Source: Opitutaceae bacterium
GTDB lineage: Bacteria > Verrucomicrobiota > Verrucomicrobiia > Opitutales > Opitutaceae
Assembly: GCA_023269565.1 (NCBI GenBank)
Contig: JAHFTD010000009.1
Span: forward strand, 1-46,493
DNA length: 46,493 nt
Reading direction: 5' to 3'
Shown: piece after piece, positions 16,249 to 21,179 of the stretch
Layout of the letters: each line of letters starts with the position of its first letter
Position numbering within the stretch: position 1 is the stretch's first letter
Translations under genes and position numbers: made by a program
Notes under the pieces: generated by a model
Database searches by the model: none
The model's input: only the letters and a program-made list of their open reading frames with translations
Told to the model about the DNA's origin: nothing

Positions 16249-16665
16249 TCAAGGGTGGTTTGGGCGGCGGGGCCGAGAGGGATTGCCCGCCGCCTCGGCC
16301 AATTGTTTCCCGCGGTGCGTGACCCCCGTTTCGCGCTGCCTGAGCGCCACCACGCGACGCTGCAGGAAGGTGATCTGTTCCTTGTAGAGCAGGCGTTCGT
16401 CGATCATGGCGCGGCGCTCAGCCTCGAGCAGGGCACGGGAGCGCTGGAATTTTCCCCACTCGGCGTCGAGTGCAACCGCCTCGGGGTGCCGGGCGGCGGC
16501 CACGGGGGCAGGGGCATGCGCCACCGACGCGGCGGCCGTCTGGTCGAGCAGCTGGCGGAGTCGCTCCCCGTGTTTGCGGAGATTATTTTCCTTCTCCTGA
16601 AATGCCTTGATGTCGATCTGGAGCTGGGCTTGAAGTCTCGCGCGTTGGGCGGCCTCTTGGAACAC
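16249..16665 (-). CDS. Hypothetical coiled-coil protein
   Basis: This 138-residue protein is rich in Gln, Glu, Arg and Leu with heptad-like spacing. Two helical stretches (LQAQLQIDIKAFQEKENN, and about residues 68-110 with SRALLEAERRAMIDERLLY) are split by an Ala/Pro-rich loop. There is no signal or membrane segment and I do not recognise a family. The frame opens with GTG at 16665 and could extend upstream, so the start is uncertain. The opposite-strand frame here is Gly/Arg-rich and less protein-like. It is convergent with ABC-F. Confidence 0.5.
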   Translation of the reverse strand: MFQEAAQRARLQAQLQIDIKAFQEKENNLRKHGERLRQLLDQTAAASVAHAPAPVAAARHPEAVALDAEWGKFQRSRALLEAERRAMIDERLLYKEQITFLQRRVVALRQRETGVTHRGKQLAEAAGNPSRPRRPNHP

Positions 16666-16823: not shown

Positions 16824-18083
16824 TCAGGCCCGGAACATCACTTCTTCGCGACTAAACATCTTCACGGCAAGAGTGAGTGCGATCGCTGCGTAGAGGCTTG
16901 AAGAGCCGAAGATGATCGCGATGTAATCCCAGTGCCAAACGCCGGAGAGCATCTCCTTGCACACGAGGCTGAGGTTGAGGATCGGCACGAAGGCGAGTTT
17001 CAAGTTGAGGTCGATGCCGGGCAGCATGCCGATGACGGCGGGCATGATGACAACGATCATCATCGGCGCGAGGTAGCTCTGCGCCTCCTTGTAGCTCTTG
17101 GCGAAAAGGGAAATCGTGAACGCGGTCGCCGCGAACAGCACCGCGACCGGAACCACCATCGCGAGCACCCCGAAGAGCCCCAGCGGATCGACAGTGGGCA
17201 TGACTTCCATCGCACCCCTGGCCGCCGCCGCGCCCTGACCGAGCTTCATGGTGGCTCCGCTGCCGGTCATCACCGAGCCGCCGATGAATGCCGTCGTGCC
17301 CATCGAAAGCAACATGAAGACCATGGCGGAGATCGAGCCCGTGAGGACCATCAGGAATTTGCCCAGCACGATGTCGACCCGCGGCACCGGACAGCAAAGC
17401 AGCGTCTCCATGGTGCCGCGTTCTTTCTCGCCGGCAGTAAGATCCATGGCCGGATACATAGCGCCGGTGAAGCACAGGATGATGATCAAATACGGCACCA
17501 GCCCACCGACAATTTCACCGCCGACCTTCTCCGGCGGAGCAACATTCTTGCGCTTCACGTCGAAAGGCTTGAGCAGTGTGTCAGGCAAACCCCGTTCCTT
17601 CAGTCGCGTCTCCGCCGTGTTCTGCCGGAGGTCGGTGAAAAATTTCTCGAGGGCGCGGTAGCCGAGACCCGATTTGATTTCGCCCTCGTAGTAGTAGACC
17701 ATGACGGTCTTCGCCTCGCCGGACTTCAGCGAGTCCTCGAAGCCGGCGGGAATCTCGACGGCAGCGCGGATTTTCTTTTCGCTGATCTGCGCCTTGTAGT
17801 CGGCGCCGGGCACGACGCGGAACATCGGGCGATTCTTTTCCGGGTCGTGCGCGGCCTTGAGGGCGGCGACGATGCCGGGCGAGTCCTCGCCGCCGACAAT
17901 CATGATGGCCGACGCCTCTTCCCGCGCTTTGCTCATGACGGTGCTCATGACCTTGCCGACGCCAAAGACCATCAACGGGATTACGAGCGTGGGAATGATG
18001 ATCATGGACATCAGGGTGCGGCGGTCGCGCAATGAATCCTTCAGTTCCTTGAGATAGATGGTGGAGATGTTGTTCCAGTTCAT
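16824..18083 (-). CDS. natB: ABC-2 type permease, NatB-like
   Basis: This 419-residue permease starts MNWNNISTIYLKELKDSLRDRRTL, the cytoplasmic amphipathic start typical of NatB, followed by helix 1 (MSMIIIPTLVIPLMVFGVG). A large external domain spans about residues 47-200. A cluster of C-terminal helices follows, including GLVPYLIIILCFTGAMYPAM, FLMVLTGSISAMVFMLLSM and YLAPMMIVVIMPAVIGML; the motif GEKERGTMETLLCCPV is characteristic of the family. NatAB in Bacillus exports sodium; other members export other cargo. It follows natA by 12 bases. Confidence 0.88.
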   Translation of the reverse strand: MNWNNISTIYLKELKDSLRDRRTLMSMIIIPTLVIPLMVFGVGKVMSTVMSKAREEASAIMIVGGEDSPGIVAALKAAHDPEKNRPMFRVVPGADYKAQISEKKIRAAVEIPAGFEDSLKSGEAKTVMVYYYEGEIKSGLGYRALEKFFTDLRQNTAETRLKERGLPDTLLKPFDVKRKNVAPPEKVGGEIVGGLVPYLIIILCFTGAMYPAMDLTAGEKERGTMETLLCCPVPRVDIVLGKFLMVLTGSISAMVFMLLSMGTTAFIGGSVMTGSGATMKLGQGAAAARGAMEVMPTVDPLGLFGVLAMVVPVAVLFAATAFTISLFAKSYKEAQSYLAPMMIVVIMPAVIGMLPGIDLNLKLAFVPILNLSLVCKEMLSGVWHWDYIAIIFGSSSLYAAIALTLAVKMFSREEVMFRA

Positions 18084-18095
18084 GGATTGTGTTCC

Positions 18096-18857
18096 TTATT
18101 TTCTCAGCGCTGCGGCCAGGGCCGCCTCCCCGCCGGCGGCCTTCACGAATACTTCCTCCATGTCCTGCTCGGCGTAACGCGTGCGCAGGTCGGGGATGGT
18201 GCCCTCGGCGACCAGCCGGCCGTCATGGATGATACCGACGGTGTCGCAAAGCTTCTCGACCTCGCTCATGATGTGCGTGGAGTAGATGACAGTCTTGCCG
18301 CGATTGCGGCACTCGCGCACGAAGTGAACAATCGCGCGCGCCGTCATGACATCGAGGCCGAGCGTGGGTTCGTCAAAGATCATCACTGCGGGATCGTGGA
18401 TCAGTGTGCGGGCGATGGAAGTCTTCTGCTTCATGCCGGTGGAGAATTTCTCGCAGCGCCGGTCAAGGAATTCACCCATGTCGAGCTCGGCGGAAAGGAC
18501 CTTGATGCGCGCACGGATCGCAGCGGAGTCCATGCCGTTCAGCTGGCCGAAGTAGGCGATCATCTCGCGCGCGGTGAGCCGGCCGTAAAGAGCCGTGCTG
18601 GCGGCGAGGAACCCGACGTGCGTGCGCACCTCGTTGGGTGCCGTGATGACATCGTGCCCGGCAACCGTGGCGGTGCCGCTCGTCGGCTGCAGCAGGGTGG
18701 CGAGCAGGCGGAGCGTGGTCGTCTTGCCCGCGCCGTTGGCGCCGAGCAGGCCATAGATGCGCCCGGGCTGGCAGGAAAAGGACACATCGCTGACGGCCGT
18801 GATGGTGCCGCGCTTCTTGTCCTTGAAAGTCTTGGTGAGGTTTCTGGCTTCGATCAT
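18096..18857 (-). CDS. natA: ABC transporter ATP-binding protein, NatA-like
   Basis: A 253-residue ATPase with a complete motif set: Walker [14 protein letters not shown] (37-49), signature FSTGMKQK (138-145) and Walker [12 protein letters not shown] (159-169). An H-loop is seen in [12 protein letters not shown]. The variant signature STGMKQ rather than SGGQQ is typical of NatA and related ABC-2 exporter ATPases. It is the partner of the permease 12 bases downstream. The C-terminal [18 protein letters not shown] matches the family's usual end, where EEVFV is frequent. Confidence 0.93.
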
Positions 18858-18894
18858 GTTTTCAGTTGTGTGGTGCCGGCGGGGGTCGGCGGAT

Positions 18895-19071
18895 TCAGGC
18901 GCACTTTGTCCGCGAGAGCAGCGCCACGGTGATGCTTCCGCCGATGGCGAGCGCCACGGCGGGCCCGAGCGACTTGCTCATCGCCCAGCCGACGCCGAGG
19001 CCCAGGGCGACGGCGCTGGCAAAGCGTGAGCGGCAAACATAGCCCAACCATTTCGCTGTGGTGGTTTTCAT
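18895..19071 (-). CDS. Small 58-residue membrane protein between the LytTR regulator and natA
   Basis: An ATG frame of 59 codons (19071 to stop 18895) reads MKTTTAKWLGYVCRSRFA, then two hydrophobic stretches, SAVALGLGVGWAM and LGPAVALAIGGSITVALL, ending SRTKCA. It lies 16 bases after the regulator stop and 37 bases before the natA start, on the same strand. The layout (basic start, two Gly-rich helices, short basic tail) suggests a small inner-membrane hairpin. I do not recognise a family. Its fixed place in the operon argues for a real gene; it could be a subunit or modulator of NatAB. Confidence 0.6.
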   Translation of the reverse strand: MKTTTAKWLGYVCRSRFASAVALGLGVGWAMSKSLGPAVALAIGGSITVALLSRTKCA

Positions 19072-19087
19072 AAAATCATTCGGTGGT

Positions 19088-19807
19088 TCACAGACTCATC
19101 TGCTCGCGGAATTCCTGCGCCTGGCGTCGCGAGAGTTCGACCTTCAGGCCACCCTTCAGTCGCACGAGCAGGCCGCCGCTGAACCACGGCTCGATGCCGT
19201 CAACCCATGCGAGATTGATGACCTGCTTGCGGTTGGCGCGGAAGAACGCCTTGGCGTCGAGCCGCTCTTCCATCGCCGTCAGCGAGCGGAAGAGCTGCGG
19301 CTTCTGGTCATCGAAATGCACGCGCGTGTAGTTGCCCTCCGACTCGAGCAGGCGGATGTTCTTCACCGGCACGAACCAGCAGCGGTCGCCCTCGCGCACA
19401 AAGACCTTGTCCTCGTCCGAGAGGCGGCCGGCGGCGACGGGAGCCCCGCCGCCAGCGGGCCGGAGGCGGAGCTTCTCGAGCGCGGCGACGAGGCGGTTGG
19501 GATCAACGGGCTTGAGCAGGTAGTCGAGCGCGTTGAACTCGAAGGCTTTCACGGCAAACTCGTCGTAGGCGGTGGTGAAAATCACCAGCGGCAGCGGCGG
19601 TTCGAGTTTTTCCAGAAGGCTGAAACCGTCGCCGCCGGGCATTTGCACGTCGAGAAAGATGAGCTCGGGCCGGAGCGCGGAGATTTTCTCCTCGGCATCG
19701 GGCACATCCTTGGCCTCGCCCGCGATCTCGATGTCGGCGTGGGCAGCCAGCAACCGGCGGAGCTCGTTGCGCGCGAGGCGCTCGTCGTCGATGAGAAGGA
19801 CTTTCAT
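19088..19807 (-). CDS. LytTR-family response regulator
   Basis: This 239-residue regulator has an N-terminal receiver domain with acidic pair Asp7/Asp8, phosphoacceptor Asp53 (LIFLDVQMPG), Thr in FTTAYDE and Lys in LLKPVD. The C-terminal LytTR DNA-binding domain (about 130-235) has LLESEGNYTRVHF, FFRANRKQVINLAWV and VELSRRQAQEFREQ. These regulators bind direct-repeat sites upstream of targets. The gene overlaps the sensor-kinase gene by four bases and precedes the small membrane gene and natAB, which it probably controls, as LytTR-type NatR does in Bacillus. Confidence 0.94.
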   Translation of the reverse strand: MKVLLIDDERLARNELRRLLAAHADIEIAGEAKDVPDAEEKISALRPELIFLDVQMPGGDGFSLLEKLEPPLPLVIFTTAYDEFAVKAFEFNALDYLLKPVDPNRLVAALEKLRLRPAGGGAPVAAGRLSDEDKVFVREGDRCWFVPVKNIRLLESEGNYTRVHFDDQKPQLFRSLTAMEERLDAKAFFRANRKQVINLAWVDGIEPWFSGGLLVRLKGGLKVELSRRQAQEFREQMSL

Positions 19808-20937
19808 GAGAGCGGAATGCGGACGTCGGCCGTGACGCAGCCGGGCGGCTCGGCAAGCAGGCAGAGCGCGGCGTGGTCGCCGTAGAGGAGTTTGAGGCGC
19901 TCGGAGGCGTTGCGCAGACCGACGCCGGTGGAGGAACCGGCCAGCGCGGCGGAGGCGCTGAGCGGGGCGCCGAGCTCGCCGGGGTTGGCCACGCGGAAAT
20001 GGAGCATTGCCGGCTGGCCGGCCGCGGGCGCGTCGAGATGCGCCGAGATGGCGAGCTCGCCGCCGTCGCGGCGCGGGGAGATGCCGTATTTCACGGCGTT
20101 TTCCACCAGGGTCTGCAGCAGCATCGGCGGGATGGGGAGTGCGCGAACCCCGGGGGCGATGTCCCAGCGGACGCGGAGCCGGTTTTCGTGGCGGATCAGC
20201 TCGAGGGCGAGGTAATCCTCCACGATGCGCAGCTCCTCCTCCAACGGCACCGTCTCCTGCTGACCGGACTGCAGCGAGTAGCGGAGCATGTTGGCGAGGC
20301 GGGTGACGGACTCGCGCGCGCGCGGGGCGTCCTCGTCGATGAGGGCGCGCAGACTGTTGAGGGAGTTGAAGAGGAAGTGCGGGTTGATCTGTGACTTGAG
20401 CGCACGAAGCTCGGCCTCTTTGACACTGTCGGCCAGCCGCAGCCGTTCGATTTCGGAGCGGTTCAGGCGATCAAAAAGGTGGTAGAAAAAATACAGGCAC
20501 AGCCAGCCGATTAGCAGCGTGATACCGTTGATGAAGCTGAAGGTCATCATCAGCCACGGCGGGTATTTGCTCAACCAGGGGCAACGCAGCAGACCGTAGA
20601 CGCAGCCGTAGCCAAGGGCGGTCCAGAGGAACGACTGCACCGTCGCGAGGCCGATGACCCGGGGCACGAGGGTGCGCCATCCCAGCTGCTTCCAGCCCCA
20701 GCGCGTCATGAAGGGTCGGGCATAGTGCGTGAGCAGCAGCCCGATCAGCATCACCATGACAATAATCGCGGCACTCGTGGTCTTGTCCCGTGGCGCCTCC
20801 TTGCTGTCGACGAAAGGCAGGAAGGCGATCTGCACCAGCAGGAACACTGACCATCCGCCCATCTGGCAGATCACATAAAGCCGCTCTTTGGCGCGGGCTA
20901 GCTTGGCGGCGGTGTCCTGCCCTCTGCGGTTCGGCAT
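19804..20937 (-). CDS. LytS/YehU-type sensor histidine kinase
   Basis: This 377-residue kinase has four predicted helices (about residues 22-43, 54-72, 91-117 and 128-152). A short linker follows, then a His_kinase domain with phosphoacceptor His187 in KSQINPHFLFNSLNSLRAL. The HATPase domain has PPMLLQTLVENAVKYGI (N-box) and a G-box near GVGLRNASERL. No separate extracellular sensor domain is visible, so the signal may be sensed in the membrane. The start MPNRRGQDTA at 20937 is chosen; two upstream ATGs would add Arg/Pro-rich leaders. Confidence 0.92.
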   Translation of the reverse strand: MPNRRGQDTAAKLARAKERLYVICQMGGWSVFLLVQIAFLPFVDSKEAPRDKTTSAAIIVMVMLIGLLLTHYARPFMTRWGWKQLGWRTLVPRVIGLATVQSFLWTALGYGCVYGLLRCPWLSKYPPWLMMTFSFINGITLLIGWLCLYFFYHLFDRLNRSEIERLRLADSVKEAELRALKSQINPHFLFNSLNSLRALIDEDAPRARESVTRLANMLRYSLQSGQQETVPLEEELRIVEDYLALELIRHENRLRVRWDIAPGVRALPIPPMLLQTLVENAVKYGISPRRDGGELAISAHLDAPAAGQPAMLHFRVANPGELGAPLSASAALAGSSTGVGLRNASERLKLLYGDHAALCLLAEPPGCVTADVRIPLS

Positions 20938-21179
20938 GGTGGAGCGAACCACAGCCGGGTGGCCGGCGGCAAGCCCGGCGGGCGCCCGGAGGCTGGCTGA
21001 GGGAGGAGGCATGGCGGCAATCTGCCGGCCCCGAGCGCGCGTGGCGCGTCTTTTCTGGACGAACGGCCCAGCGACGGGATGAGTGGGGTGGCCGGCGCCA
21101 AGGTGACGGGAATAAAATTTCCGCGGCGCGAGAAAATTTGGCCTGCATTGCGCCATTCCTCCCCTACACTGCCCGCCTT

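Follow-up and report, generated by a model that had tools for sequence, protein, structure and literature searches.

In Bacillus subtilis the NatK-NatR two-component system reportedly regulates natAB, to go by the title of a 2007 report by Ogura. Two further papers give the Bacillus operon the name natAB-yccK (PMC3498285) and describe the extracellular domain of Bacillus NatAB as five strands with helices (PMC11466899). LytTR Regulatory Systems (LRS) pair a LytTR regulator with a membrane inhibitor encoded after it, have direct repeats just upstream of -35 and, in two cases, are linked to ABC transporter genes; examples from Streptococcus mutans are HdrRM, BrsRM, SMU_433/434 and SMU_1070c/1069c (PMC6193735). 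Here we describe a locus from an Opitutaceae bacterium that has likenesses to both. In the stretch of DNA analysed, 46,493 nucleotides of contig JAHFTD010000009.1 (hereafter the window), a row of five minus-strand genes running from 20937 to 16824 encodes a PF06580 kinase, a receiver-LytTR regulator, a 58-codon frame (sp58), an ABC ATPase and an ABC-2 permease.

Comparative analysis leads us to propose an autoregulated exporter operon of the Opitutaceae with a four-gene core (kinase, LytTR regulator, NatA-like ATPase and NatB-like permease) and an optional gene, sp58, between regulator and ATPase, the hairpin product of which would modulate the kinase-regulator pair; we regard the case for and against this proposal as evenly balanced. 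The membrane-bound kinase would sense an envelope signal and phosphorylate the regulator, which would bind tandem CCRYTCRTCC repeats upstream of its own operon and also, in most tested genomes, of a MacA-type efflux operon, whereupon exporter synthesis would rise. The hairpin, made from the same transcript, would sit in the membrane and act on the pair, in the simplest case as a feedback inhibitor or a tether that the system can do without, in the manner of the LRS membrane proteins. The genes of the row are as follows.

19804..20937, minus strand: sensor histidine kinase of the PF06580 type, with a membrane N-terminus and the H-box NPHF (Pfam His_kinase, 9.5e-28)
19088..19807, minus strand: response regulator, receiver plus LytTR DNA-binding domain (Pfam Response_reg and LytTR)
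18895..19071, minus strand: sp58, a 58-residue, probably two-helix membrane protein (homologues, purifying selection, structure model)
18096..18857, minus strand: natA, ABC-2 exporter ATPase, NatA/DrrA/ABCA-like (Pfam ABC_tran, 9.1e-31)
16824..18083, minus strand: natB, NatB-like ABC-2 permease (Pfam ABC2_membrane_3, 5.5e-30)

The row is as tight as the initial annotation had described it, with every frame where it was placed and with Pfam domains that agree with the assigned identities, including that of a dedicated LytTR two-component system ahead of an ABC-2 exporter. The kinase and regulator frames share a 4-nucleotide overlap, and the later gaps measure 16, 37 and 12 nucleotides. The PF06580 kinase, which has three hydrophobic peaks ahead of its kinase part in a 19-residue Kyte-Doolittle scan, adjoins a receiver-LytTR regulator with phosphorylation residues, as expected of a LytTR-type two-component system; D7, D8, D53, T79 and K99 of the regulator are invariant among 14 orthologues.

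The locus resembles the LRS in having a small membrane protein gene right 3' of the regulator (sp58 follows 16 nucleotides after the stop), in the ABC transporter link seen in two of those systems and in autoregulation via direct repeats, which is predicted here. It departs from them in that their regulators have no receiver and no kinase, whereas here a kinase gene lies ahead of a regulator equipped with a receiver. The LRS membrane proteins also bear different domains (DUF2154 in HdrM, for one), whereas sp58 matches no Pfam or NCBIfam model. With Bacillus subtilis NatK-NatR/NatAB it has in common a two-component pair, an ABC-2 exporter and a predicted five-stranded extracellular domain with helices, such as is described for that exporter; an extra small protein and a different phylum set the present locus apart. 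The earlier suggestion of a regulatory logic shared with Bacillus is taken here as an analogy, not as a sign of common origin. A search did not confirm NatR as a LytTR protein.

The operon is well conserved among relatives of the window's genome; those that carry it in the collection of named genomes belong to Opitutaceae/Opitutia. When named genomes were scanned with the regulator, 80 loci emerged, 38 of them Opitutaceae-like and 42 from Bacteroidota, Ignavibacteria and similar groups. The order kinase-regulator-natA holds in 37/38 Opitutaceae rows and natB lies 3' of the regulator in 35/38, the three rows without natB being short contigs. The 42 Bacteroidota/Ignavibacteria-type loci have the kinase and regulator and no natA downstream.

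The small protein sp58

The structure model of sp58 consists of helices at residues 4-35 and 38-55 separated by a break at Gly-Pro (mean predicted local distance difference test score (pLDDT) 64.9, predicted TM-score 0.31), from which we read the protein, with moderate confidence, as a two-helix hairpin, plausible rather than certain. A mean net charge of about +1.9 at each end, by a rough split, suggests under the positive-inside rule that both ends are cytoplasmic. A cysteine is found in 25/30 hairpins, usually near one protein end. That the protein falls outside known models, as first noted, is borne out by the lack of any Pfam or NCBIfam match. The Pfam 2TM domain (PF13239) did not reach its gathering score, the best of five members giving E 0.25 and not being the window's, and an ATP synthase c match in a paralogue scored 19.4 bits against a cut-off of 24; we read both similarities as shared glycine-rich helix composition.

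The initial annotation had pointed to stops or frameshifts in homologous operons as the sign of a spurious frame; judged by that test the frame is not refuted, being conserved in 30 operons. Among 94 regulator-natA junctions from one family, drawn from 252 searched genomes (L107, L262, L312 and L313, stretches without natA, the duplicate L237, the contig-end cases G064 and G177 and regulators below about 63% identity were left out), an intact homologue at profile E < 1e-6 occupies the gap in 30 Opitutaceae operons and is missing from 64. The profile contained 13 of these 30; the other 17 were found outside it. One of the 64, G081, holds a broken but recognisable copy with an in-frame stop, and the operon of the closest natB relative (84%) is also without sp58. 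The gap measures at least 153 nucleotides where sp58 is present and mostly less than 165 where it is absent.

Controls for chance matches were clean: none of 200 antisense gap frames matched the profile at E <= 1e-3; among 3000 composition-shuffled copies the top score was 11.7 bits, whereas the 30 homologues score 26.5-87.4. In eight close pairs the ratio of nonsynonymous to synonymous differences per site (pN/pS) of the coding frame is 0.14-0.46 and codon position 3 is the most changed in all eight; the sense frame has the lowest pN/pS of the six frames in 7/8, the exception being the closest pair, where one antisense frame falls below it. The corresponding ratio of substitution rates (dN/dS) in the best 22 pairs is 0.10-0.64, and across all 435 pairs, which are mostly saturated, the median pN/pS is 0.85, with pN < pS in 365. 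By these comparisons purifying selection is clear among near relatives and not among far ones.

Frame length alone gives no support, because the same 230-nucleotide gap also holds an overlapping 65-codon frame. Given its conservation in the gap, the low pN/pS in close pairs and its near-exclusive position, the sp58 frame is very probably a real gene, and a chance frame was set aside after the selection, shuffled and antisense controls. Because 64/94 operons have no intact copy, sp58 is optional, and an obligate exporter subunit was likewise set aside; one of the two roles first suggested, that of a subunit of NatAB, is not established.

Predicted operator and exporter regulon

In LytTR tandem operators, such as those of AgrA, YpdB and BtsR, a short sequence is repeated directly at a distance of roughly two turns of the helix. 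The k-mers enriched upstream of the kinase form a like arrangement, namely two copies of a direct repeat with a period of 20-21, here with the half-site CCRYTCRTCC, which was derived from these sequences. The pair is present in 42/42 upstream rows (41 distinct loci), with a spacing of 20 in 24, 21 in 17 and 23 in one, the spacing not being imposed beyond 19-23. Pairs scoring at least 17 of 20 occur in 40/42 rows and in 27/840 shuffled sequences, a count that is partly circular in that the half-site comes from the same 42 rows, which is not so for the macA test below. The window holds the following element.

21057..21086, minus strand: tandem operator CCACTCATCC-N10-CCGTTCGTCC, half-sites 21077-21086 and 21057-21066, about 120-150 nucleotides before the kinase ATG

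This pair is exact (0 mismatches) and is the only match in the window at three or fewer mismatches, where the chance mean is 0.21. We predict 21057-21086 to be a LytTR-type operator, and such repeats co-occur with the regulator. An alternative kinase start at an upstream ATG at 21156 would give 450 residues and would place the operator inside the gene.

Genome-wide, in 14 genomes, period-20 matches with up to two mismatches number 61, against 25 for a reversed-pattern control, and several operator matches precede an HlyD/MacA-type gene (PF16576). There were 33 macA matches, of which 30 were tested; G043, G047 and G008 (no locus, all without this regulator) were left out. The element, at a spacing of 20 or 21, lies before macA in 12/15 genomes with the regulator and in 1/15 without it (Fisher p 1.2e-4, without kinship correction), and 0/23 coding-region controls reach the score of the macA elements. 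The regulator-bearing genomes without the element at macA are the window's own, G025 and G027. In G030 the pair has no such natAB beside it and is divergent to adjoining macA-macB genes (macA and an ABC ATPase gene). Because the operator stands both before its own operon and before macA in regulator genomes, these two proteins, kinase and regulator, probably govern a regulon of exporters that includes their own operon, and the regulator is likely to control exporters more generally. The initial annotation mentioned neither the operator nor the link to macA nor the coiled-coil gene described below, and our searches of the open-access literature for LytTR with Opitut, small membrane protein/Verrucomicrobia and MacAB returned nothing on this system.

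Operator-like repeats were also seen elsewhere. In the window's genome an exact one lies just before an M48 (CAAX-type) protease (L347; G000 C15:11294-11323); the protease was rejected as a conserved regulon member, the repeat being present at 1/4 M48 homologues examined. Exact period-21 repeats lie just 3' of phosphodiesterase-like genes in two genera (L351 in G025 and L355 in G142).

Distribution and possible role of the hairpin

Of the 30 best profile matches in the 252 genomes, 29 occupy the regulator-natA gap, the broken G081 copy among them, and the remaining one lies beside another LytTR regulator, in G172. This locus (L317) and one in G095 (L318) have the order kinase, hairpin, DUF7010 protein, hairpin, regulator, without natAB. 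Conversely, sp58 was found in 0/14 natAB loci without a neighbouring kinase match. A class-wide search (384 genomes, E <= 1e-5) matched 13 genomes, 11 of the same family; the match in G578 comes from a repeat translated in the wrong frame, and that in G543 has no regulator or exporter gene recognised among the listed frames.

On a tree of regulator plus NatA, sp58 presence needs 22 changes, at least 12 of them forced by starred branches, and is barely clustered, 32/500 shuffles being as low. The window's sp58 is closest to the copies of L243, L100 and L278, all in other clades, while its tree neighbours are L314, with a different sp58 type, and L098, without sp58. This pattern fits repeated loss together with exchange or old duplication, which are not separable here. 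The regulator-natA gap admits other sequences as well: in G027 and G003 it holds a dispersed repeat, which matches at 15 places in the first genome and at 39 in the second, and in L132 and L158 an inserted frame of about 130 residues, which we take to resemble a GxxExxY protein. The dispersed repeat is palindromic-looking and lies at 3647-3737 of L098 and in the L097 gap.

Modulation of the kinase-regulator pair is favoured over a role as NatB subunit because sp58 occurs with LytTR pairs that have no natAB and is absent from natAB without the pair, and because LRS place a membrane inhibitor after the regulator (PMC6193735). The chief alternative makes sp58 an accessory, often dispensable subunit of the NatAB-like exporter that packs on NatB and stabilises or adjusts transport. 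It draws on the placement of sp58 directly before natA in the 30 operons, on a junction that is home to 29 of the 30 best matches and on the multi-helix membrane protein, DUF7010, that the two other two-component contexts also hold; the 0/14 natAB loci, the two related pairs that carry sp58 relatives without natAB and the closest natB relative without sp58 argue against it, and we judge it unlikely, though the most serious competitor.

Several observations weigh against modulation of the pair. The 64 operons without an intact copy indicate that the system works without the hairpin, which was found in 0/10 other LytTR pairs and in 0/42 Bacteroidota/Ignavibacteria relatives, where none of the small membrane frames nearby is sp58-like. 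Both pairs without natAB were fetched because of their sp58 matches, and both loci, G172 and G095, encode the multi-helix DUF7010 protein; in G205, on a contig of 3 kb that has no kinase, a hairpin likewise neighbours a gene with a weak likeness to DUF7010, so that the hairpin's partner could each time be the larger membrane protein. The main weakness of the proposal is accordingly that its natAB-less cases are two, chosen by matches, each with another membrane protein. A solitary hairpin in G034 has neither neighbour recognised. On the regulatory side, besides the partial circularity of the repeat count, period-21 matches show no excess (77 against 298 for the reversed control, in the same 14 genomes), and the window's own macA is without the element.

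A generic or unrelated membrane role, such as a stress hairpin or a mild membrane toxin carried in an insertion-tolerant gap, would accord with the insertions at this junction (the dispersed repeat in G027 and G003 and the GxxExxY-like frame in L132 and L158) and with the scattered presence of sp58 on the tree; set against the purifying selection and the near-exclusive location in this operon, we find it improbable. In class II bacteriocin regulation, a LytTR pair accompanies a small glycine-rich peptide and an ABC exporter, a likeness that raises the reading of sp58 as an exported peptide (bacteriocin or autoinducer), exported by NatAB and sensed by the kinase. The switching of sp58 type between near relatives, with the window's nearest L243, L100 and L278 and not L314 or L098, would suit such a peptide. 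A double-helix hairpin with ends that are basic on average would not, no leader or C39-type exporter was recognised, NatA is a plain ATPase, and most operons are without sp58; we hold this reading to be more improbable still. That the frame is no gene, with the longer frame overlapping it by chance and a Shine-Dalgarno sequence that is weak by eye, is scarcely credible given its homologues, the selection on it, its fixed place in the operon and the outcome of the controls with shuffled and antisense sequences.

Small membrane proteins tend to escape notice, and for few of them is a partner known. Because sp58 comes with an obvious partner set, a predicted operator and regulon, and natural comparisons with and without it in close relatives, its role is directly testable. 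If modulation of that pair of proteins, kinase and regulator, is indeed its role, sp58 would form a link between two-component systems and LRS. More tentatively, and with distinctly less assurance than for modulation itself, sp58 may found a family of glycine-rich two-helix modulators, in which an inhibitor of the LRS kind has been added to a full LytTR pair and exchanged, lost and replaced at one junction across the Opitutaceae; the system concerned would run a conserved NatAB-like and MacA-type efflux regulon.

Exporter class and downstream gene

The locus encodes an ABC-2 ATPase and a permease with a large extracellular domain, the latter as modelled, which places it in the NatAB class. The natB model (pLDDT 75) has one transmembrane helix, an extracellular alpha/beta domain with five strands within residues 58-180, and further transmembrane helices. 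Its best Foldseek matches are ABC-2 type exporters of modest similarity (TM-score <=0.46 to the query), and the best solved-structure matches of natA are ABCA transporters. Against its best curated model, a drrA-type ATPase (TIGR01188), natA scores 240 bits, below the cut-off of 312; natB scores 406 bits, below the cut-off of 435, against the ABC transporter permease/CPBP protease model NF041647 (ABC_perm_CPBP), residues 2-418 aligning to profile positions 1-400 of 636, so that the match covers the permease part only. The nearest plasmid-borne natB relative (28.7%) is annotated as a permease/CPBP protease. No NatA or NatB model is among the NCBIfam matches listed. We use 'NatAB' as a class label only: NatA and NatB are broad labels here and do not imply sodium export.

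A further gene lies 158 nucleotides 3' of natB and is possibly the last gene of the operon.

16249..16665, minus strand: coiled-coil protein gene (similar downstream frames in relatives)

By single-linkage clustering a similar downstream frame is present in 38/44 rows; the window's own frame was added by a direct match to L128 (40% over 133 residues), giving 39/44, two of these rows (L100 and L134) being one locus. The L094 version is longer, with an N-terminal receiver-like domain that scores 29.6 bits, just below the cut-off.

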